From a virus: 30,698 nucleotides of DNA. Below are positions 6,677 to 29,811 of the stretch, in pieces. The notes beneath the pieces are model-generated. The model was not told the origin of the DNA and ran no database searches. It saw nothing but the letters and a program-made list of their open reading frames with translations. Location of the stretch: IMG/VR virus record IMGVR_UViG_3300030333_005025, positions 1 to 30,698 of that record. One strand, given 5' to 3'. Both the position numbers and the translations under genes were made by a program. Positions within the stretch are counted from its first letter, which is position 1. Every line of letters begins with the position of its first letter.

Positions 6677-7141
6677 TTACACTGCAACTTTCTTTTCTCG
6701 TTTTCGCCTGTGACCGGACTGCCGTACAGCTTTTTCTATCTTACGCCTCGTTAGCCCAGTCTTGTCTATTATTTCGTTATAGCTCAACCCAGCTTTATAC
6801 AACTCAACAGCAGATTCAAGCTGCGGTGCGCTGGTTCTGTCCATAAAAGAGGACTTCGCCTCCAGGTTATCAAGCCGCTTATCAAGCGTATCGGCGAATG
6901 GGTCCCATGAGCCTCCGTCATCGACGCTTGCTTTTTCAACCATGTCGCCAATTGACTTGCGAACGCTCACATAAGTTTGGACAGCCTTTAGTCGCCTACT
7001 CAACTCAATTGGATCATCAGAACACTCAGACATTACTTGAGCCAACATCTGCTCAGTCGCCATCGCGGAGCGAAGCCAATAGTCAACAACATCCTTTGAT
7101 TGGACCACCGGCAATAAATCTGACTTCACAATGTTACTCAT
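6677..7141 (-). CDS. terS: Terminase small subunit-like DNA-binding protein
   Basis: 154 residues, mostly helical. The middle part (about 25-90) has heptad-like spacing suitable for oligomerisation. Residues about 107-140 form a helix-turn-helix (ELYKAGLSYNEIIDKTGLTR) followed by a basic tail (RRKREKK). It would recognise the packaging site and present DNA to the large subunit. In many phages the HTH is N-terminal, so the C-terminal placement is a variation. The assignment rests on the gene lying directly upstream of terL, its size and its HTH. It has no clear ribosome site, and its start lies only 17 bp from the divergent regulator gene. Confidence 0.7.
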   Translation of the reverse strand: MSNIVKSDLLPVVQSKDVVDYWLRSAMATEQMLAQVMSECSDDPIELSRRLKAVQTYVSVRKSIGDMVEKASVDDGGSWDPFADTLDKRLDNLEAKSSFMDRTSAPQLESAVELYKAGLSYNEIIDKTGLTRRKIEKAVRQSGHRRKREKKVAV

Positions 7142-7152
7142 AGTGCTACTAT
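7125..7152 (+). promoter_or_regulatory. Promoter of the RHH regulator, apparently leaderless
   Basis: TTCACA (7125-7130), 16-bp spacer, TACTAT (7147-7152). The -10 box ends 6 bp before the ATG at 7159, so transcription would begin at or within a base or two of the start codon. There is no ribosome-binding site, which agrees with a leaderless message. The -35-ATGT and TACTATGTATA segments recur in the promoter at 8148. Confidence 0.5.
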
Positions 7153-7153
7153 G
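7139..7153. promoter_or_regulatory. Perfect inverted repeat, candidate operator
   Basis: CATAGT-GCT-ACTATG is a perfect 6-bp inverted repeat with a 3-bp spacer. It covers the terS start codon on one strand and the -10 box of the divergent RHH gene on the other. Half-sites of this length and TAGT/ACTA content suit a ribbon-helix-helix dimer pair. A binding role is inferred, not shown. Confidence 0.5.
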
Positions 7154-7158
7154 TATAT

Positions 7159-8119: not shown

Positions 8120-8175
8120 TTTTTTTCAGTTTTTTGTGCCTTTTCTATTGACAATGTGCTAATTCATGATACTAT
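8120..8175 (+). promoter_or_regulatory. Early rightward promoter with phased T-tracts
   Basis: A perfect TTGACA (8148-8153) and TACTAT (8170-8175) are separated by 16 bp. Immediately upstream are T-runs at 8120-8126, 8130-8135 and 8141-8144, centred about 10 bp apart. They lie on one helix face and should bend the DNA or act as an UP element. It drives the early operon starting at 8195/8225. The core resembles the RHH-gene promoter in the -35-ATGT and TACTATGTATA segments. Confidence 0.7.
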
Positions 8176-8224
8176 GTATAAGTAGACTAAAACAATGGGC
8201 CAGAGGTCCAAAGGAAAACAAAGA

Positions 8225-10356: not shown

Positions 10357-10580
10357 GGATAGAACTCTATGAATCTGTAGAGGTTAGCAGCCCTGTCTCC
10401 TGTTCATTTTGCAAGTCGCAGATTGGACGGGATGACAGGTGCTGCATGACTGAAAGGTGTGAGTATTACTGTTCAGTGAGATGTGCTGAGCAGAGCTACA
10501 TATTCACGTTTGATGAATTACAAATTATAGACGCAAGCAACATGGTTCAGCTTGTATTTGAGGAGAAGAATGATGGCTAG
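10353..10580 (+). CDS. Small treble-clef-like zinc protein
   Basis: 75 residues. Cysteines at 17 and 20 (CSFC), a central cluster at 30, 31 and 36, and C40/C44 (CSVRC) give a MYM/TRASH-like spacing of the kind found in small zinc-binding modules. The C-terminal 30 residues form strand-like segments ending in an acidic tail. It is third in a run of cysteine-bearing mini-proteins. Confidence 0.6.
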   Translation: MRIELYESVEVSSPVSCSFCKSQIGRDDRCCMTERCEYYCSVRCAEQSYIFTFDELQIIDASNMVQLVFEEKNDG

Positions 10581-10887
10581 AAAGATAACAGAAGATGCAT
10601 GTAGAGCATTCCATAATGGTTACGATTTCAAGAAAAGCAACACTGAGGTTGGTCGTTACTATGAGTCAGGGGGTGATGATTTCGGTTGGTGTATGTGGCT
10701 GCATAATAACGGGATAGCAAAGCGAATGAACGGCAGGCTTTATATCAGAAGTGCAGGTTGGCGAACGCTGACAACAAAGGAAAGGTTGAACGGTATTAGC
10801 GGAGTGAATGTCTATCAGTCGAACTTCGATTGGTATCTAAACGGCGAGCTATGGGAAAACGATAGCGAGTGGACGGAGGTAAAGTAA
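10570..10887 (+). CDS. Conserved small phage protein of unknown function
   Basis: 105 residues from the ATG at 10570 (GGAG just upstream; ATG at 10573 is equally possible). The pattern RKITEDACRAFHNG, then NTEVGRYYESGG, then LHNNGIA, GWRTLTTKERLNG and WYLNGELWE matches a small protein I recall as common in early regions of many phages, of unsettled role. It overlaps the previous gene by 11 nt and the next by one base. Confidence 0.7.
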   Translation: MMARKITEDACRAFHNGYDFKKSNTEVGRYYESGGDDFGWCMWLHNNGIAKRMNGRLYIRSAGWRTLTTKERLNGISGVNVYQSNFDWYLNGELWENDSEWTEVK

Positions 10888-11281: not shown

Positions 11282-11373
11282 TGTGGACCGGTAATTGGCT
11301 GACAGACATCATGTTCTGGAGCGTGCTTACGATAGTAATCCCAGAACTAATTAGTGAGATAACAAATAATTGA
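11281..11373 (+). CDS. 30-residue hydrophobic mini-protein
   Basis: Starts at ATG 11281, sharing its A with the preceding TGA, and ends at TGA 11371. It has four Trp or Phe in its first 13 residues and a hydrophobic middle (IMFWSVLTIVIPELI) able to lie on or cross a membrane. It is the second such micro-protein in the early region. Translation is inferred from the coupled start. Confidence 0.5.
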   Translation: MWTGNWLTDIMFWSVLTIVIPELISEITNN

Positions 11374-11390
11374 TTGTCACTTATTTATAC

Positions 11391-11419
11391 TTGACAAAAC
11401 ATGGTTTTTATGATACTTT
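11391..11419 (+). promoter_or_regulatory. Internal promoter ahead of the two Xre regulators
   Basis: TTGACA (11391-11396), 17-bp spacer, TACTTT (11414-11419), then AGGAG and ATG 11433. The -10 context TATGATACTTT resembles the early promoter (CATGATACTAT). This placement also excludes any protein start upstream of 11433. Confidence 0.65.
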
Positions 11420-11432
11420 ACAGGAGAAATTT

Positions 11433-11678
11433 ATGGTTAATTCATGGTCTAAAAAGTTAGTGCGAGTGCGGCACCAGCTATCCAGCGAGGGAGGTAGGAC
11501 GGTAACGCAGCATGAGATGGCTGCATCTATAGGTTACAGTCCGGGCACCGTATCTAAATGGGAGCGAGGGGAGCGCACTCCAGATGTAGCAGTTAAGGTT
11601 TTGCTTACGCTACTGATGGAAGATCCGTCGTTCATTACCGTGATTAAGAGAATAGTACAGGACTTGGATAAGGAGTAG
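11433..11678 (+). CDS. Xre/Cro-type HTH regulator 1
   Basis: 81 residues with a central HTH_XRE domain: TQHEMAASIGYSPGTVSKWE followed by RGERTP. It is a compact DNA-binding unit without the peptidase/dimerisation domain of CI-type repressors, and so is Cro-like in size. The start is chosen at ATG 11433 because AGGAG lies 6 nt upstream and a full promoter occupies the region before it. It is directly followed by a second Xre-type gene. It likely binds operators in the early region, including its own promoter. Confidence 0.75.
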   Translation: MVNSWSKKLVRVRHQLSSEGGRTVTQHEMAASIGYSPGTVSKWERGERTPDVAVKVLLTLLMEDPSFITVIKRIVQDLDKE

Positions 11679-12929: not shown

Positions 12930-13605
12930 TCAGATAATACTACTGTACGGCAAACCGAAAGTGGGTAAGTCAACACTTGCGAGTAAGTTTCCGGGAGCAA
13001 TCTTTGCAGCTACTGAGCCGGGACTCAAATATCTAAACGTGCATCAAGTGCAGGTTGGAGATTGGCGAGACTTCAAGACTCTATGTGTCGAGCTATTGCA
13101 GTCAGACCATGAGTTTAAAACGCTTATCGTAGATACAGTTGACCTGCTTTGGAATCATCTGTGCGATCACATCTGTAGGAAGGAGGGAGTGTCTCACATC
13201 TCAGACTTCAAGAGCTTTAGCAAGGGATACAGGATGGCAAAGGATGAGTTACAGAGAGTGCTTACAAAGGTAGCTAACCTAACTACGAAACGTGGCCATA
13301 GCATGGGGCTTGTGTTAATATCTCATGTTACCGAAACGCAGGATGATGGGTCGCTAGTATGGGCACCGAGTATATCTCAGTCACCAAGGCAAGTGCTTAT
13401 GAGTATGGCAGATGTTATCTGCTTTGCAGACATATATAAGGACAGCAGTGGTGATGTCAAAAGGGTGCTTAGGTTAGGTCCGCATCCAAACTACATGACA
13501 GGTGGCAGGATACCCAACCTGCCGGACGTTGTAAATTTAGAGTACAAAGAATTTGAAACAGCAGTGATAGATGCACTGGAAGAGGTGAACAATGATGGAA
13601 AGTAA
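12877..13605 (+). CDS. Sak4-like RecA-fold ATPase / single-strand annealing protein
   Basis: 242 residues. Walker A is GKPKVGKST (25-33), Walker B is LIVDTVD (83-89), and a VLISHVTE strand (about 146-153) follows as in RecA-like cores. The domain is small, without RecA's DNA-binding loops of full length, matching phage Sak4 proteins that pair complementary strands with help from an SSB. The two genes following an end-processing nuclease support this. It overlaps the nuclease gene by 53 nt and the next gene by 14 nt, so expression is coupled. A general AAA-24 type ATPase is the cautious alternative. Confidence 0.82.
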   Translation: MTALLPKEKTRPATNLGNQIILLYGKPKVGKSTLASKFPGAIFAATEPGLKYLNVHQVQVGDWRDFKTLCVELLQSDHEFKTLIVDTVDLLWNHLCDHICRKEGVSHISDFKSFSKGYRMAKDELQRVLTKVANLTTKRGHSMGLVLISHVTETQDDGSLVWAPSISQSPRQVLMSMADVICFADIYKDSSGDVKRVLRLGPHPNYMTGGRIPNLPDVVNLEYKEFETAVIDALEEVNNDGK

Positions 13606-14089
13606 GCATAATGAAATGGATTGGGCCAAGGTAAATAGCGCATGGTCTAGTGCGGATAAGGCCAAGCCAGAGAGAAAGCCGATGAAAAAAGATATGCCAC
13701 CTGTGCCTGATGGGAGGTACGTGGCTTGCAGTTCATCTGTTTTATTCACAACTACAAACAAGTCAGGCAAGCCATGCCTGTTGTGGATGTTGGATATACA
13801 GGAAGGACCGCATGCAAGCAGACGAGTGTTCAAAAGGAACATGCTGGTAGAGAAAAGTAATATGGAGTTCCTTGCAAAAGACTTACACACCTGCAAGGTT
13901 GCTCTTCCCGAACAGCTTAGTGATTTAGATACGACCAAGTTAGAGGACTTGACGTTGGCTATAACAATCAAGACCAAGACCACTGACAACGGTAGCTTTA
14001 CGGACGTATACATTAACAGGCTAGTAGATATGGAGGATGCAACGAGTAATGTTACGAATACTTACGAGGATGATGACATACCATTCTAA
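13592..14089 (+). CDS. DUF669-like single-stranded DNA-binding protein
   Basis: 165 residues. The central part has OB-like strands (DGRYVACSSSVLFT, KPCLLWMLDIQ, LTLAITIKTK). The end is a typical SSB tail, acidic with a hydrophobic tip (YEDDDIPF), which in SSBs recruits partner proteins. It follows the Sak4-like gene with overlap, and this gene pairing is well known in phages. The first ATG (13592) is used; the following ATG (13595) is equally possible. Confidence 0.75.
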   Translation: MMESKHNEMDWAKVNSAWSSADKAKPERKPMKKDMPPVPDGRYVACSSSVLFTTTNKSGKPCLLWMLDIQEGPHASRRVFKRNMLVEKSNMEFLAKDLHTCKVALPEQLSDLDTTKLEDLTLAITIKTKTTDNGSFTDVYINRLVDMEDATSNVTNTYEDDDIPF

Positions 14090-14138
14090 GTACCCACTAC
14101 CACCAGAGGTACCGGAGGCACCGCCTGTGGTCCTGTAA
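14070..14138 (+). CDS. Possible 22-residue proline-rich ORF
   Basis: In a frame shifted from the SSB gene, ATG 14070 preceded by GAGG opens a short frame ending at 14138. The product has the PLPPEVPEAPPVVL composition. It overlaps the end of the SSB gene and fills the only gap before the sigma4-alphaCTD gene. Chance is a real possibility. Confidence 0.2.
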   Translation: MMTYHSKYPLPPEVPEAPPVVL

Positions 14139-14148
14139 GGAGAAGGCT

Positions 14149-14874
14149 ATGGAATATACTCTAAAGCTCGATAACGGCGGTAAGGTAGTTATCTACGACT
14201 GCGCTAATGCAGATATTGGCTACAAAAAAGAGACTAAGACCCGGCTTCCGCAGGGGTCATGGCTAACAGAGGTTGAGAAGATAATTCTTTTTGACAGGCT
14301 ATTGAAGGGAGGGCGTAAGAGGAGGACGCTTAGGTCAATAGCAAATAAAACTCGTGTAAGTCATGAAAGGGTTCGTCAGCTTGAGGAAGCGGTTATTGCT
14401 AAAGTTCGAGATGCAGTGCTGACTAACAGCTTGCACACCCTAGCGGTTGACCCGATGACATTTATAAACACGAGTAAGCTGCAGGTGTTGGCAAATAAAG
14501 AGACTGGGCTTGCATTGCAGCTAAACTCATTTGTTGGATCCCCCATGATCTTAATAGATGAGCATTGGAAGTTATTGTTTCAGCCCCTGTCTGTAATCAG
14601 GGGAACAGTTAGGTTTAATAGCGGACTGGATAACGCGAAGATTGAAACAGTGCTAGACCTATGCACCAGAACAGAAGCCGAGTTACTAAAAGTAAAAAAC
14701 TTTGGAATGAAGTCCTTAAAGGAAGTTAAAGAAATGCTTGCGGAGCTTGGACTGGGGCTTGGTTCACGCCTTTGCTGGGCTAAAGATGGGAGGTGCGAGC
14801 GACCACTGTATTACAGCGAGGAAAAAGCATTCCGAAAATACATTAGGGAGGCTCAGGATAGTTTAGATGAGTAA
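14149..14874 (+). CDS. Sigma region 4 / RNA polymerase alpha-CTD fusion protein
   Basis: 241 residues. Residues about 39-92 match sigma-70 region 4 (LTEVEKIILFDRLL, then SIANKTRVSHERVRQLEEAV). At the positions that touch the -35 box, E73, R76 and Q77 are kept, while the first Arg is His72. Residues about 152-208 align without gaps to the alpha C-terminal domain of bacterial RNA polymerase: R155, G186, K188, S189 and E192 equal R265, G296, K298, S299 and E302 of E. coli alpha, with N268 and C269 replaced by Ser and Gly. The C-terminal 30 residues are basic and aromatic. No core-binding sigma region 2 or 3 is present. AAGGAG precedes the ATG. It probably binds promoter DNA and redirects or represses transcription. 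Domain calls are strong; the role is inferred. Confidence 0.8.
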   Translation: MEYTLKLDNGGKVVIYDCANADIGYKKETKTRLPQGSWLTEVEKIILFDRLLKGGRKRRTLRSIANKTRVSHERVRQLEEAVIAKVRDAVLTNSLHTLAVDPMTFINTSKLQVLANKETGLALQLNSFVGSPMILIDEHWKLLFQPLSVIRGTVRFNSGLDNAKIETVLDLCTRTEAELLKVKNFGMKSLKEVKEMLAELGLGLGSRLCWAKDGRCERPLYYSEEKAFRKYIREAQDSLDE

Positions 14875-15205
14875 GTCACAGCGAGATAAGGGGCATCGCT
14901 TTGAGCGACAAGTGGCAGCGGACGCTACAGTGGCTCTGGGTGAGAAGGTCCAAAGAACTATCCAGTTCAGAGGCGGTCAGTCTGAAGGCTCTGATGTGGT
15001 AGTGGAGCCATTTGCTATCGAGTGCAAGCACTATAAGAAGTTAGGAGGTCTAATAAACAGAGCGTATGAGCAAGCCAAGCGTGATGCTAAGGAGGGGTTC
15101 ATACCTATATGTATTTGCAAGGGTGACAGGCAAGAGCCTTTAGTCACCATGGGATACAAAGATTTTTGGGAACTAATAAAAGAATGGAGAGAAAGAAGTG
15201 AGTAG
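14867..15205 (+). CDS. Small PD-(D/E)XK nuclease / resolvase-like
   Basis: 112 residues. It carries E13 in the first helix, D43 in GSDVVVEP, and an E52-x-K54 pair in FAIECKHYK, the full PD-(D/E)XK set. A conserved-looking GFIPICICKGDRQEPLV strand follows. The size and motif spacing suit Holliday-junction resolvase-like or structure-specific phage endonucleases. It overlaps the preceding gene by 8 nt and lies in the recombination/replication block, where it could resolve branched intermediates before packaging. Confidence 0.75.
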   Translation: MSKSQRDKGHRFERQVAADATVALGEKVQRTIQFRGGQSEGSDVVVEPFAIECKHYKKLGGLINRAYEQAKRDAKEGFIPICICKGDRQEPLVTMGYKDFWELIKEWRERSE

Positions 15206-15748: not shown

Positions 15749-15764
15749 GTAAATAGATACGGAA

Positions 15765-15925
15765 GAAGCCATCTCCCCGTGAGTTACTCGTGCTAACTTC
15801 GTAGACGCTGAATCTACAGACCCGTAAGCAAAGGCTTCACTCAGACAACCGCGCTTCAGGGGTACGACGGTTAGCGGTAGGATCGTTAGTGAGACTGACA
15901 GAAGTCTCATTGCTACCGCTATTTT
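15765..15925 (+). ncRNA. Structured untranslated segment upstream of the primase-helicase
   Basis: The 208-nt gap between genes contains several clean pairings. GAAGCC (15765-15770) pairs with GGCTTC (15833-15838). Inside is a 5-bp hairpin with a 7-nt loop (GTAGA 15801-15805, TCTAC 15813-15817). Downstream TAGCGGTAG (15872-15880) pairs with CTACCGCTA (15913-15921), enclosing TGAGACT (15890-15896) paired with AGTCTCA (15903-15909). Four T follow. It could be a small RNA, a cis-regulator of the next gene, or a weak terminator. It does not fit a tRNA. Confidence 0.45.
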
Positions 15926-15950
15926 CACATAACATAACAGTTGGTAGAAT
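15924..15950 (+). promoter_or_regulatory. Possible promoter for the primase-helicase, leaderless spacing
   Basis: TTCACA (15924-15929) and TAGAAT (15945-15950) with a short 15-bp spacer. The -10 box ends 6 bp before the ATG, the same spacing as at the RHH gene, and again no ribosome site is seen. The short spacer makes this tentative. Confidence 0.35.
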
Positions 15951-15956
15951 TGCAAA

Positions 15957-24117: not shown

Positions 24118-27100
24118 CTATTCTCCTATCCATTCCCTTTGTTCTTCTGTCATAGGTGTCTTGGCTTCAAGTAGGATTCTTCGGCTGTTAATGATGTCCC
24201 GCTGTTCACCTGACCACAAATTTATTACTTCCAATAAGTCTTTTAAACTTCCCCAAGTTGGGTTTTCAATAAAATCACTAGACCTAGATTCAAAATCAAC
24301 TTTAGCTCTTGAATTTGGCATATGGTATATAACGCGCAAGAATGATTTTACAGCAGGTACGCCATACTGTAACACAAGCTCGTTTCTTTTGGCTTGGCCT
24401 TTTGTAGATACCAATTTCTCCAGAGCTTTTTCCTTCTGCTCCCAACCAAGGTTCTGTAATGATTTCGCAAAGTCTTCTTCTGTTACGTTGTGCTTCTTGT
24501 TAAGCGCTGCCAATACGCCAGACATGTATCTATCAAGGTCCTGTGCCCTGTTGATTATTAGCTCTGTCTTTGTGTATCCCTTCGTACGGGTAACAGCCAT
24601 TTCAAATAATCGCTCAGTAATTGGCCTAGCATAACCGTCACGGTCAACCCAGTTGTTCCATGCGCCAGCAGCTTTTTCCCAGAACCTTCCACCCTTGTAT
24701 CGGTTCCACTCCTCAACAGACTCTCCGGTAAGTTTTACCATTTCGGAATATGGACTGCCGCCAAATACACTGGCTATATCAGAAGGAGATGGGAATACTT
24801 GAGGCGCATAACCTTTAACCATTTCGTTGTGGAAGGTAACTAGACCTTCTCCGTCTAGCTTTGCGTTTATTGCGCCATGGAATGCTTTCATGAGAGGAAC
24901 GGCAAGGAAGTGGTTAAGGAAACCTGTACGACGTAAGTACTCTAGCGGCCTATTTCCTTCTATTGGATCAAACCCTGGGGACAGGTATCCGAATGGATTG
25001 AGAAAGTTGGTATCAACAAATAGGTGCCTTTTCTCGTAAGCCCTATCTGTCGGCTTGAACATTTCGCCACTAGCAGCAGGAACCTGCTTATCCCCGCCAT
25101 CAAGAAATGACAATAAAGACATTGATGCAGCAGGGGCAAATCTAAATCGCTCCCACTTGTTCATGCCTTCTGTCATAGCGTACAACCCATCAGCTCCTTC
25201 TGGAGATACACCTGCATTGGCAAAACCATGGGCAGTCATAGCGTCATGTATGGTCATGTACACTTGAGCCTGCACTGGGTTTCTCATAAGCCATTCAGTC
25301 GTGAGCGGAATAGCTCTTGCTGTAAAGGTAATGAAAGGTTGGCCCGCAATGTAGTGAACAGCTTTGGCTCCCCTTGCAGCCTGGAACCCTGATTCTGTAA
25401 TACCCTTGTAAGGAGCGTATGGCATTCGCATCATATGCACAAAGCCGGGAACGTTCTTATAGTCTATGAACTTCTCCATAGCCCCGGAAGCTGCCCTGCT
25501 TCTGCCTATTCGGCTTTTGTACTTATGGTGGTAGGCTTGTCTGAATATATCATCACATACCTTGCTGTAAAAAATACCAGGGAACTTAGTGATATCAACA
25601 CCGCCGTGGTATCTCTTCTTTATCCAGCCCTTTGCTCCGTGACCATGATGAATTCTGTCAACAAGGCCAGCAAATTCCTTTAGGCCGTCAGTGGGTGTCT
25701 TCCATACAGCCTTCATGGGAACAAAATCGCTGCCCCGTAAGCCAAGCTCGCCCTCTATAAACGAACTGCTAAACACACCGTCTTCGTATGTTTCTTTCCA
25801 ATGTTGTGATTTTTTGTTTGAGAAGGCATCTTGAATTGCCTGCTGGTAATACTTCCAGTTGCCGGGGTTTAGGATGCTTAGGCCAGCCATAGGTCCAAAG
25901 TAAAGTACATTGGTAAGTACGTTACGTATTGTTGTCGTTGGACTCCAGGCGGTGTTTGCGGATTTCCATTTCGACAGAAGCTCGGGATACCACCCGCTCA
26001 TATCGTCAATTAGTTTCTGGCCGTTTATAATATGGTACCAAACGTCTTCATGAACCCACTTGTTTGCTAAGTCTCCATACTTTTTAGGGGCGTAAAGGTC
26101 TACAAGTTCACGTAAGCCACTAAGCTGGGCAGTCTCACCTCTTCGGGCTAGGACCTCTTTGATCCTGCTTTCTGGGATTCTTAGGTTCTTTGCCTCTCGC
26201 TTCAGTTGCTTTGCAGACATGCTCTTATATCTGTTTGCATACATCGACTCTCCGGGCATCTTCATCCAGCCCTTTGAATTAGACATGTCGTAAGACTTTG
26301 CAATAATCGGAGACTTTGCCGCCTCTCTGTATATCTTGTGCATGGAGACTAGGCTTTGCATCCTGCCGAGGCCGGTAGTTGCAGTACGAAAGAAGTCGTT
26401 CGTCATTCCGTAGCCGCCCATGATTTTACCAGTGTCTGGGTCTGGCTTGTTCCTGGCTTTTATCTCACTAAGGCCACGCTCTAGCTTATCGCTTTGTTTA
26501 CGCAGCGCCATAGCTTTGCTAGCCTTTTCCCTGACGGACTTTCGTAGCCATTTGATTCTAGCGATTTCTGAAGTGGGTACAGGTGCGCCCATGCTTTGGG
26601 CTTCAGTTATCAATGAGTCTATCGCTTTAGCTGTTTTTGATAGCTCGCCAATAAACTTGCCATCTATAGGGGCATCGCTTTCAAGCAATTTGCTAAGGGA
26701 GGCTGTAATGCTTTGGTATCCCTTTGAAAGATTAGCAAGCTCCTCGATATCATCAAACGTCGAAAGCCTAGCCATGGTTGCTTGGGACAGTGCATCGGCA
26801 TGTAGGGCTGCATGATCATCTATTATCTTTTGAGGTATAGCCTCGCCAACACGAACAAGCCTGACTTCAATCGGTATCCCCGCTCTTCTAAGCTGGTTAT
26901 CCAGAAGAGAGCCTGCTGCGCCCGGTGCGACTGAGCGTGACTCGCCTCGTTGCTGCGCCCTAACAATATCGTCGGCTGTTTTTGCTTTTATGGCTGGCGG
27001 GTCAAATAGCTGCGCCCAGAAGAAGTCCCGTATCTGCTTTGGGCTGTGAAATAGGTTAAGACCTGCAAGCTCCTCGGATAACAGAAGAGACTTCTTAGCG

Positions 27101-29811
27101 AGATCAACTCCCCAGATGTTCATTGCGGCAACCTTGCCTGCAACTTCGTTTCTGAGTTGAATGGTCTTCAGGTCTACCTCTGACTTCTGCCACGCTTTGC
27201 CAGTCTCCGGGTTCTTCCCTAGTTTTAGTTTGACCTTGCCAGCGTCTGTAAGCTCCCATAGCCCGTGCTTGTTTATTTTTACAATGTTTTGAGCTGGGTT
27301 TGACGGATTGAATATAGGCCGGTGCTCCATCCAAGCCATTTCGTTGAATGTTGTTCTTATGTCCTTTGGCACTATAGGCGTAACTGGACCCTCAAACCCA
27401 GCTTTATGTAAGACGGCAGCCGCGCTAAGAGCACCAGGTTCAGGTTTATCAAATCTCTTTTTAACTTGCTCTGGTGTCAGGCTGTCAATGGAGTCGGCAA
27501 GCTCTTGAACATACATGAGCGATCTTCTGTTGTGACCCATGCCCTCTCTGGATACAGCCATAAAAAGCGCAAGGGACTTTCTTGAAGCAAGATTATCTAA
27601 CGGGGACATCAGCATGTTTCGCAAGAATCCCTGTCCTTTACCGGATGCTAGGCGTCTAACGGCAATGCCAAATAACTCCACAGGGGCAAACACATTCATG
27701 GGTGAGCTTAATAAAGTAAGGCCGTCCATGCGGTCCTGCCACAATTTTGATTTCGCTATATCATCGTTAAAGGTTTTTGCTGCATTTTGGGCATCAAATT
27801 TAAATCTATCAACGTAGCGACTTTGAAACCTATAACCATCAGGTAAAATTTTAAGGTTTTCCGGGTTTTTAAACAGCGCTTTAGCTTGAACATCGGTTGC
27901 TCGCGCACTGTTATAACCGTACCAAATAGCTTGCTTTCTTGTGGCATCAACCAACCTGTCCGCTGCTTTATCGGCCCCCCGTAAATAATGTTCTTTCTTT
28001 AGTTTGGCTTTCTTCATGAGTGGCGCTCTGACCATAAACATGTTGAGTGCCGCTTCCACCGGCCTGTAACGAACCATGTTCTCAAAATCTACACCGGGGA
28101 TTGTTCTATAAAAAGAATTAGCCATGCCCTGCGCCATAAAAGAAGCGCCGTCTGTAAACTCATCCATGCCCTGCTTGAGTGACTTTGTGGATGACCAAAC
28201 GTTTTTTCTGGAGAATGGGTTTATGTACTTTTGGGCACCTTCGTATAGGCCGACGGACATGCCATAGCCAATCTCCCAGAAGTTTGGGCCAAAGTGATCA
28301 ACCCAGTCCTGAATAAAATTATTCTTTTCAAGACCTAAATGCTTGCTGTCTGGCACATGAATAACTTTATCTAACCAGTTAGCAATCTTCATGCTGGATT
28401 GAGATGTCTCTGGCGAGATTGCTGCGTGAACTAGCTCGTGTGTCCCCCAAATAGTTCGAGCCGCAAACTCCTTTGATGAAGGAAGGAAATGAACCATTGG
28501 CGCACGTTCAAGGGGGTTATGCTCTACGTTTATGAGTGGCCTATCTCTATGAAAAATTCGCTTGTCTAGTTCTGGTATGTAGGCAACGTGCTTGCTTAAG
28601 AAGTTATATATCTGCGGAAAGGCTTGCATTGTTCGGGACGCAAGGTCTTCATCCCATGCAACCTCGCCTACCAATCTACCAGTATATCTTTTGTCAAAAA
28701 ACGCTGGCCGAGCCTGTGTCTCTTCAGCCCACTCCGGTAACTTGGCCATGGCAAACTGGCCTTTAGTTATCTGCCTGCTGTGTTCAGCGCCGGGAACTGC
28801 ATAGCCCGATACGTCTGCGGATATGGCTGGGCCAGAAGGTCTAGTGCCCGGCACATTTAACGGCGAATAGAAGTAATCCTCTCCGTAGTCAGCAGGCGTT
28901 TTCTTTCTGGTTGTGTAGTAAGCATCGGAAATCTTTTCCCCTGGGAATGTAAGCGTGTGCCTGGTTGTCACTGTGCCTGGGTCAAACCGGCGAGACTCGG
29001 GAAGGGCCATTCCAAGCATACGCTCTCTATGCTCTTTTGGTGTTGTGGTTCGGCCATACTCAAGAACTTTTTGCTGATACGGGGTAAGTAGACCGGCGTT
29101 CTTTCTTATGATTTCCCGGTATCGCTTGTTGGTTACGTCCTCGCCAGACTCAAGGATGCTTCGCATTTCACTGGCAGCGTCATCCGGAAGCAGGTTCATA
29201 GCATCGTTATGTGCAGCGTTCCATGACTCAGCATATTCATCGGTTAGTATCTTGGGCTGAACCCGTAGTGCATCTTTTATTTCAACAGAGCCTTTGCCTT
29301 CTGAGAACTTAGCCTGCTCTATTGGGTCAGGTAGGCCAGTTACTTCAGACACCCCTGGCCTTTTCCATTTCTCTTTAGGGCTGAATGCGAAGCCCATCTT
29401 CTCGGGAGTTATTGTTGTCCCGGTATCCATGTACTCTGGCTTGCCGTCAGTGAACACAAGGCCCTGTGGCCCGCGCCAGTCAACCGTAGGGAATCCGCGC
29501 CCCTTGTACTTCATAGCTAACTGCTGCTGACGTTCTCTGGATTCAGGGCTTAGTGATAGAATTTCTCCAGCGGTTGGACCTGCTTTTCCAGCAACATCAA
29601 AGCCACGAAAGTACCCACTAGGGGTATCTTCATAGACGGGCGTTCCTGTAGCTCCAGTCTCTCGCCACTTTTTTACCTGCTTTTCTGCGTCAGTTTCTTC
29701 TTTGCTTTCGGCCCACTGCCTAACGCCTTTGGAGAGAATGCTTTCTTCTTCGTCTTCCTCATCCTTCTTCCATTGCTTTATGTAGCTCTGGACTCTATCG
29801 AGGAAGCTCAT
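24118..29811 (-). CDS. Giant virion protein (1,897 residues) with an HEXXH motif
   Basis: The largest gene in the window. Probably an internal or ejected virion protein or part of the DNA-delivery apparatus, judged by size and position upstream of the fibre genes. The N-terminus is charged with short helices (RVQSYIKQWKKDEEDEEE). Around residues 458-462 is HELVH (H458, E459, H462) followed by AAISPETSQSS, the zinc-binding core of a metallopeptidase; E468 or a later Glu could be the third ligand. Long helical and Lys/Arg-rich stretches fill the middle. A hydrophobic turn (NVLYFGPMAGLSIL) and several segments near the C-terminal third (VAPAAS-like and SLLSFLDGG) could touch membrane. No RNA polymerase motifs of the N4 type are visible. 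AAGAGG precedes the ATG, which overlaps the preceding stop (ATGA). Confidence 0.7.
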   Translation of the reverse strand: MSFLDRVQSYIKQWKKDEEDEEESILSKGVRQWAESKEETDAEKQVKKWRETGATGTPVYEDTPSGYFRGFDVAGKAGPTAGEILSLSPESRERQQQLAMKYKGRGFPTVDWRGPQGLVFTDGKPEYMDTGTTITPEKMGFAFSPKEKWKRPGVSEVTGLPDPIEQAKFSEGKGSVEIKDALRVQPKILTDEYAESWNAAHNDAMNLLPDDAASEMRSILESGEDVTNKRYREIIRKNAGLLTPYQQKVLEYGRTTTPKEHRERMLGMALPESRRFDPGTVTTRHTLTFPGEKISDAYYTTRKKTPADYGEDYFYSPLNVPGTRPSGPAISADVSGYAVPGAEHSRQITKGQFAMAKLPEWAEETQARPAFFDKRYTGRLVGEVAWDEDLASRTMQAFPQIYNFLSKHVAYIPELDKRIFHRDRPLINVEHNPLERAPMVHFLPSSKEFAARTIWGTHELVHAAISPETSQSSMKIANWLDKVIHVPDSKHLGLEKNNFIQDWVDHFGPNFWEIGYGMSVGLYEGAQKYINPFSRKNVWSSTKSLKQGMDEFTDGASFMAQGMANSFYRTIPGVDFENMVRYRPVEAALNMFMVRAPLMKKAKLKKEHYLRGADKAADRLVDATRKQAIWYGYNSARATDVQAKALFKNPENLKILPDGYRFQSRYVDRFKFDAQNAAKTFNDDIAKSKLWQDRMDGLTLLSSPMNVFAPVELFGIAVRRLASGKGQGFLRNMLMSPLDNLASRKSLALFMAVSREGMGHNRRSLMYVQELADSIDSLTPEQVKKRFDKPEPGALSAAAVLHKAGFEGPVTPIVPKDIRTTFNEMAWMEHRPIFNPSNPAQNIVKINKHGLWELTDAGKVKLKLGKNPETGKAWQKSEVDLKTIQLRNEVAGKVAAMNIWGVDLAKKSLLLSEELAGLNLFHSPKQIRDFFWAQLFDPPAIKAKTADDIVRAQQRGESRSVAPGAAGSLLDNQLRRAGIPIEVRLVRVGEAIPQKIIDDHAALHADALSQATMARLSTFDDIEELANLSKGYQSITASLSKLLESDAPIDGKFIGELSKTAKAIDSLITEAQSMGAPVPTSEIARIKWLRKSVREKASKAMALRKQSDKLERGLSEIKARNKPDPDTGKIMGGYGMTNDFFRTATTGLGRMQSLVSMHKIYREAAKSPIIAKSYDMSNSKGWMKMPGESMYANRYKSMSAKQLKREAKNLRIPESRIKEVLARRGETAQLSGLRELVDLYAPKKYGDLANKWVHEDVWYHIINGQKLIDDMSGWYPELLSKWKSANTAWSPTTTIRNVLTNVLYFGPMAGLSILNPGNWKYYQQAIQDAFSNKKSQHWKETYEDGVFSSSFIEGELGLRGSDFVPMKAVWKTPTDGLKEFAGLVDRIHHGHGAKGWIKKRYHGGVDITKFPGIFYSKVCDDIFRQAYHHKYKSRIGRSRAASGAMEKFIDYKNVPGFVHMMRMPYAPYKGITESGFQAARGAKAVHYIAGQPFITFTARAIPLTTEWLMRNPVQAQVYMTIHDAMTAHGFANAGVSPEGADGLYAMTEGMNKWERFRFAPAASMSLLSFLDGGDKQVPAASGEMFKPTDRAYEKRHLFVDTNFLNPFGYLSPGFDPIEGNRPLEYLRRTGFLNHFLAVPLMKAFHGAINAKLDGEGLVTFHNEMVKGYAPQVFPSPSDIASVFGGSPYSEMVKLTGESVEEWNRYKGGRFWEKAAGAWNNWVDRDGYARPITERLFEMAVTRTKGYTKTELIINRAQDLDRYMSGVLAALNKKHNVTEEDFAKSLQNLGWEQKEKALEKLVSTKGQAKRNELVLQYGVPAVKSFLRVIYHMPNSRAKVDFESRSSDFIENPTWGSLKDLLEVINLWSGEQRDIINSRRILLEAKTPMTEEQREWIGE

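Follow-up and report, generated by a model that had tools for sequence, protein, structure and literature searches.

The window analysed here is the whole of the viral contig IMGVR_UViG_3300030333_005025 (30.7 kb; 30,698 nt), a record that is probably incomplete since related contigs reach 40.7 and 42.3 kb. The original prediction placed at 14149–14874 a protein fusing a sigma region 4 to the C-terminal domain of the RNA polymerase alpha subunit (alpha-CTD), and an open reading frame of 241 amino acids is found at these coordinates. With its ATG preceded six bases upstream by AAGGAG, the open reading frame looks real. The features of the locus are:

8148–8176, plus strand: early promoter of sigma-70 type, TTGACA-16-TACTATG, preceded by a T-rich tract (from sequence)
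13592–14089, plus strand: SSB-like DUF669 gene (PF05037, E=9.6e-7), the upstream edge of a variable slot
14137–14142, plus strand: ribosome-binding site AAGGAG, six bases ahead of the ATG (from sequence)
14149–14874, plus strand: sigma-4/alpha-CTD fusion gene, ATG at 14149, stop at 14872–14874, 241 aa
14263–14424, plus strand: sigma-70 region-4 domain, residues 39–92 (NCBIfam RpoH and structure matches)
14425–14568, plus strand: middle segment, residues 93–140 (alignment with the ortholog, low pLDDT)
14569–14772, plus strand: RNA polymerase alpha C-terminal domain, residues 141–208, start about 140 (PF03118, structure, contact residues)
14773–14871, plus strand: C-terminal tail, residues 209–241 (predicted helix; partly conserved in the ortholog)
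14867–15205, plus strand: RusA-like/PDDEXK resolvase gene (PHROG 244, E=4.4e-22; PF24608)

The gene sits in an early-type cluster in the order PD-(D/E)XK exonuclease, Sak4-like AAA_24, SSB-like DUF669, fusion, RusA-like/PDDEXK resolvase and DUF5906/Toprim primase-helicase, its stop overlapping the start of the resolvase gene (ATGAGTAA in the window, ATGGGTAA in the related contig L038). Upstream of the exonuclease an XRE-type HTH protein conserved in relatives is encoded at 11370–11675, with a weak match to sigma-70 region 3 (PF04539, E=5e-4, under the cut-off). Ahead of the primase lies a noncoding stretch (15750–15956), mostly missing from the related contigs L002 and L003, with a long local hairpin and a z of -1.2 for the whole stretch; these two relatives carry a TTGACA-17-TACGAT-like promoter ahead of the primase, with only a weak one in the window. 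Elsewhere, 10552–10887 encodes a Kyanoviridae Gp96 family protein (PF23790, E=6.2e-14), though this marine phage looks unrelated, and 24118–29811 encodes a protein of 1897 aa that matches neither Pfam nor PHROG families and whose only relative is a weak one in L004.

Sequence profiles and predicted structure agree on both domains, confirming that a sigma-70 region 4 and an RNA polymerase alpha-CTD are joined in one 241-residue chain in the order that had been predicted. The alpha-CTD, proposed to span residues 152–208, was matched by PF03118 over residues 153–199 (E=4.5e-14, 52.3 bits against a Pfam cut-off of 23.8) and by the NCBIfam rpoA model over residues 143–208 (E=6.7e-16), with AlphaFold pLDDT of 83–96 over residues 141–200. 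The predicted model has the helix-hairpin-helix fold of an alpha-CTD, superposing gaplessly on Caulobacter 9zum (Z 10.8, rmsd 1.8 over 74) and on E. coli 1lb2 (Z 10.4), and matching 8y5t with Z 10.3 and rmsd 0.8 over 67. The rpoA models match by their CTD part only, the alpha N-terminal assembly domain not being found in the window protein.

Residues 39–92, likewise proposed as sigma-70 region 4, were matched over residues 38–91 by NCBIfam RpoH/sigma-32 models, which are proteobacterial RpoH models (E=2.7e-7 and 3e-7), and by PF04545 with 20.0 bits (E=4.8e-4), slightly below the cut-off of 24.1. The assignment is carried by these RpoH profiles together with an ortholog in L038 that lies over the PF04545 cut-off and a structural match to sigma-32. 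In the full model, region 4 (pLDDT 72–93 over residues of about 41–90) gave Z of 7.3–7.7 against solved sigma chains, a middling value taken alone. When the segment was modelled apart, its best PDB match was E. coli sigma-32 (rmsd 1.3 over 52, 38% identity), with a probability of 1.00 but E=0.03 and a mean pLDDT of 61 for the separate model. Structure prediction with comparison to the PDB thus has both segments folding as proposed. The AlphaFold run used a 25-sequence alignment and gave a pTM of 0.42, which indicates that each domain is modelled confidently and their mutual arrangement is not. The middle segment (93–140) is well conserved with the ortholog (LAVD..., ETGLAL, HW.LLFQP), with pLDDT of 41–54 over much of it. 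Chance similarity is ruled out by the E-values, the ortholog and the fold, and by their profile matches both domains are members of specific polymerase families rather than generic HTH or HhH domains.

No gap interrupts the register with E. coli-type alpha between positions 256 and 321, as measured against the 329-residue Salmonella alpha, whose numbering puts the arginine at 265. The five contacts listed in the original prediction stand in this register (R155=R265, G186=G296, K188=K298, S189=S299, E192=E302). A sixth it had left out, N268, also a recognised DNA contact, is serine in the window protein (S158) and asparagine in the L038 ortholog, such that five of the six UP-element contacts R265, N268, G296, K298, S299 and E302 are kept; C269 is also changed, to G159. 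On the sigma side, the sigma70 DNA contacts E585, R586, R588 and Q589 are present and R584 is replaced by histidine, while from the -35 recognition set R584, E585, R588 and Q589 the ortholog keeps R588 only. Given the His at R584, the Ser at N268 and the changes at E585 and Q589 in the ortholog, the specificity for -35 and UP elements could be weak or changed.

In E. coli the canonical contact between alpha-CTD and sigma region 4 is that of alpha D259/E261, the 261 determinant, with sigma70 R596. The corresponding residues are V149/R151 and A84 in the window protein, and M/T and N in the L038 ortholog. With residues replaced on both sides, this contact is lost in the window/L038 clade, and the fusion is not expected to reproduce the usual side-by-side contact. 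The covalent link may have rendered the contact superfluous; alternatively, the fused domains may no longer lie side by side.

The ortholog in L038 (IMGVR_UViG_3300030419_002867) is 49% identical over window residues 39–240, occupies the same locus between SSB-like and RusA-like genes with one extra small ORF, and passes both Pfam cut-offs (PF03118 62.0 bits, PF04545 26.1 bits). L038 is a more distant phage, with an SSB 39% identical to that of the window. The fusion gene is missing from L002 and L003, the two closest primase relatives (88–89% identity), in which SSB is followed by the resolvase after a gap of some 50 bp, while L004, L010 and L013 have other small genes in or beside the SSB-resolvase slot. 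Of 24 contigs reached by way of terminase and primase, none showed an alpha-CTD. The slot is a variable accessory position with the fusion gene patchily distributed, and its absence from close relatives indicates that it is dispensable for this type of phage. Against L002/L003, the nucleotide identity of the window is about 60% upstream and climbs to about 90% within the resolvase, making it likely that the upstream module has been exchanged.

Scans with alpha-CTD and fusion alignments detected a sigma-4 followed by an alpha-CTD in 17 viral contigs, the window included, and alpha-CTD-only matches in 28, both counts being lower bounds as the scans require exact motif matches. Two of the 17 contigs, L182 and L183, are near-identical. 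The full window protein as sole query found no relative in viral contigs, its motifs being too specific. Among 391 genomes sampled from one clostridial class, with about seven candidates scored per genome, a single genome (L169) carries a fusion gene. The architecture is thus not singular, being shared by 16 more viral contigs and by a bacterial genome, and a one-off unique fusion is ruled out. The fusion as a common bacterial gene is likewise not supported, given one genome in 391 from that clostridial class, proteobacterial genomes lying outside the sample; in the bacterial genome scan all 80 loci among the matches listed were ordinary rpoA. Matches of the window protein in INPHARED and in plasmids were to the alpha-CTD side only, those opened being bacterial rpoA. 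INPHARED 'phage' records such as OR851339, OR844994 and CAKLQH020000003 have it, where opened, among ribosomal-protein genes, a setting in which such records look contaminated or mislabelled.

Comparison of 17 fusion proteins (16 viral, one bacterial) matched both Pfam families at E<=0.01 in every case. None of the 17 departs from alpha R265 or G296; K298 and S299 are kept in 16 and N268 and E302 in 15, while sigma R586 and R588 are invariant and R596 is kept in 13. The spacing from sigma R588 to alpha R265 is 72–97 residues in 16 of the 17 and 79 in the window protein, a narrow range that would fit both domains acting together and that shared descent could also give. On this basis we define a fusion class by the presence of both domains, sigma-4 first, and an R588-to-R265 distance of about 70–100 residues, in which the window protein falls. 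Several members adjoin phage DNA polymerase, helicase, methyltransferase or replication-initiation genes, and several carry an added N-terminal HTH. Three nucleic-acid-binding modules (N-terminal Cro/XRE-type HTH, sigma region 4 and alpha-CTD) are seen at L182:2755-3645, L185:2755-3591, L186:2617-3600 and L189:2647-3675. A separate viral alpha-CTD (L065:4180-4626) is interrupted by an insertion that follows its first helix. Searches of open-access full texts turned up no account of such a fusion occurring naturally, and the fusion is apparently a recurrent, small and undescribed architectural class.

The Bacillota-type fusions (viral L178-L191, clostridial L169) have the domains, their order and a similar spacing in common with the window protein. 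They differ in having an RpoD-like sigma-4 in those scanned, R596 mostly kept and often an added N-terminal HTH, and in being without the conserved middle segment and tail of the window clade. Among rpoA profiles, the one that fits the window protein and its L038 ortholog best is also the best for Salmonella and Acinetobacter, whereas L051 and L066, fusions of Bacillota type, are best matched by a different one. On these profiles, separate origins for the marine and the Bacillota fusions are plausible but are not claimed here, with an alpha-CTD tree of 71 columns being without resolution and a single origin of all fusions not rejected (p-AU 0.29).

Sigma region 4 contacts both the -35 element and, on core polymerase, the tip of the beta flap (PMC6755090), the flap contact being described also in work on T4 (PMC2988020). 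As such, the original statement that the protein has no core-binding sigma region is misleading, for region 4 itself docks on the flap tip and the missing part is region 2. This module of the beta-prime clamp and the -10 element (PF04542) was not found in the window protein, which is thus not a complete sigma-70 family factor, nor in nine contigs of the window phage group, positive controls having worked. A split sigma with a separate region-2 protein was accordingly rejected within these nine contigs, which may be incomplete. With no region 2, the phage probably relies on host holoenzyme for promoter opening. A search for a T7-like RNA polymerase gave no match but is uninformative, since no control matched for the family. 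The sequence at 8148–8176 is a good sigma-70-type early promoter and, as a target of the fusion protein, a candidate only. A promoter-like TTCACA-16-TACTAT at 7125–7157, over the start of a presumed small-terminase gene, is conserved in L005 and L006. No promoter class or motif particular to fusion carriers was found when looked for.

The reading we prefer, at about even odds, is that of a transcription factor by which the phage acts at promoters on the RNA polymerase of its host. The interpretation in the original prediction is supported in part, the roles it put forward (occupying a -35 plus UP element, bridging activator, shut-off of host promoters) being putative. The alpha-CTD would grip the minor groove of A/T-rich (UP-like) DNA, while sigma-4 would read a -35-like site and/or dock on the beta flap tip, the seat of the host sigma's own region 4, with about 80 residues between the contact points making both contacts possible at once. 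The fusion would in this way supply the two upstream promoter contacts of the polymerase in trans and bias the host enzyme toward phage promoters, promoter opening being left to the host holoenzyme for want of a detected region 2. We infer that the protein binds DNA and the flap, and that its effect is recruitment rather than repression, from what the analysis shows: the two domains, their predicted folds and kept DNA-contact residues, the recurrent narrow spacing, the early replication-type operon and no region 2 detected. Support comes from the membership of both domains in specific polymerase families, the kept contact residues, the spacing, the missing region 2, the precedents in T4 and the structure 3n97; against it stand the altered R584 and N268, the lost alpha-CTD/sigma-4 contact residues, the want of a carrier promoter motif and the absence from close relatives. 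A broader proposal, in which a widespread class of phage factors replaces the sigma-4/-35 and alpha-CTD/UP contacts in trans and so gives phages a promoter class of their own without a polymerase or a complete sigma, is put forward more tentatively.

Two promoter-reading modules lacking region 2 are also what would be expected of an occupant unable to open promoters, and the protein could act in host shut-off, with sigma-4 on the beta flap and/or the -35 element and alpha-CTD on the UP element blocking sigma-70 promoters as a dominant negative. A gp33-gp55 fusion does compete effectively against sigma70 transcription (PMC2988020), but the phage's own early promoter is itself of sigma-70 type with a T-rich tract and would be hit by a general blocker unless timing differs. 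We regard shut-off as rather unlikely, while the sequence cannot decide between it and activation. A similarly low likelihood is given to a sequence-specific repressor or activator of the phage's own genes, whose domains would only bind DNA and leave polymerase untouched. The third N-terminal HTH of several relatives fits such a multi-headed DNA-binding protein, as does the pattern of conservation, DNA-contacting residues being the best kept and the window clade having lost R596 and the 261 determinant that faces polymerase; R596 is nevertheless kept in 13 of 17 fusions, and the polymerase subunits from which both domains come normally make protein contacts as well. Least probable of all is a replication or recombination accessory, aiding resolvase, SSB or primase by structure-specific or non-specific DNA binding rather than acting in transcription. 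The gene does lie between SSB and resolvase, overlapping the resolvase start in two phages, and other fusions adjoin DNA polymerase, helicase and replication initiator genes, but both domains match specific RNA polymerase families and the slot holds unrelated small genes in relatives, so that position says little about function.

For action on host polymerase there are precedents in T4. Like the fusion, the late co-activator gp33 is without region 2, mimicking sigma region 4 and taking its place on the beta flap tip (PMC2988020), flap binding by the fusion being putative. Unlike the fusion, gp33 carries no alpha-CTD and does not discernibly resemble sigma in sequence; it acts with gp55 as a split sigma (PMC2988020) and needs both gp55 and the sliding clamp, whereas no gp55-like region-2 protein was detected in the window phage group. 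The same two upstream contacts, region 4 and alpha-CTD, are targeted by AsiA/MotA appropriation and by Alt/ModA modification of alpha R265 (PMC6755090, PMC2988021), a residue crucial for UP-element binding and the target of Alt (PMC2988021). T4 thereby remodels or modifies host domains, whereas in the window phage a single phage-encoded chain contains copies of both. Alpha-CTD and sigma-4 are seen together on UP/-35 DNA in the crystal structure 3n97. Alpha-CTDs outside rpoA also occur in Mycobacterium phage Mithril, Rhodococcus phage Finch and Erythrobacter phage vB_EliS-L02 (ORF 40), in which, unlike the fusion, no sigma-4 domain has been reported or seen. Likewise, the minimal single-HTH sigma factors of jumbo phages have, as does the fusion, an HTH resembling region 4 and no other part of sigma (PMC7824862), but no alpha-CTD.

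Phages were known to remodel sigma region 4 (AsiA), to mimic it (gp33) and to modify alpha-CTD (Alt/ModA). What appears to be new is that copies of both modules are carried in one chain, in diverse phages and at near-constant spacing. If active on polymerase, the fusion would be a compact natural tool for re-aiming bacterial transcription and a single-chain system in which the cooperation of -35 and UP contacts could be studied, and it probably helps phages to steer the host transcription machinery.
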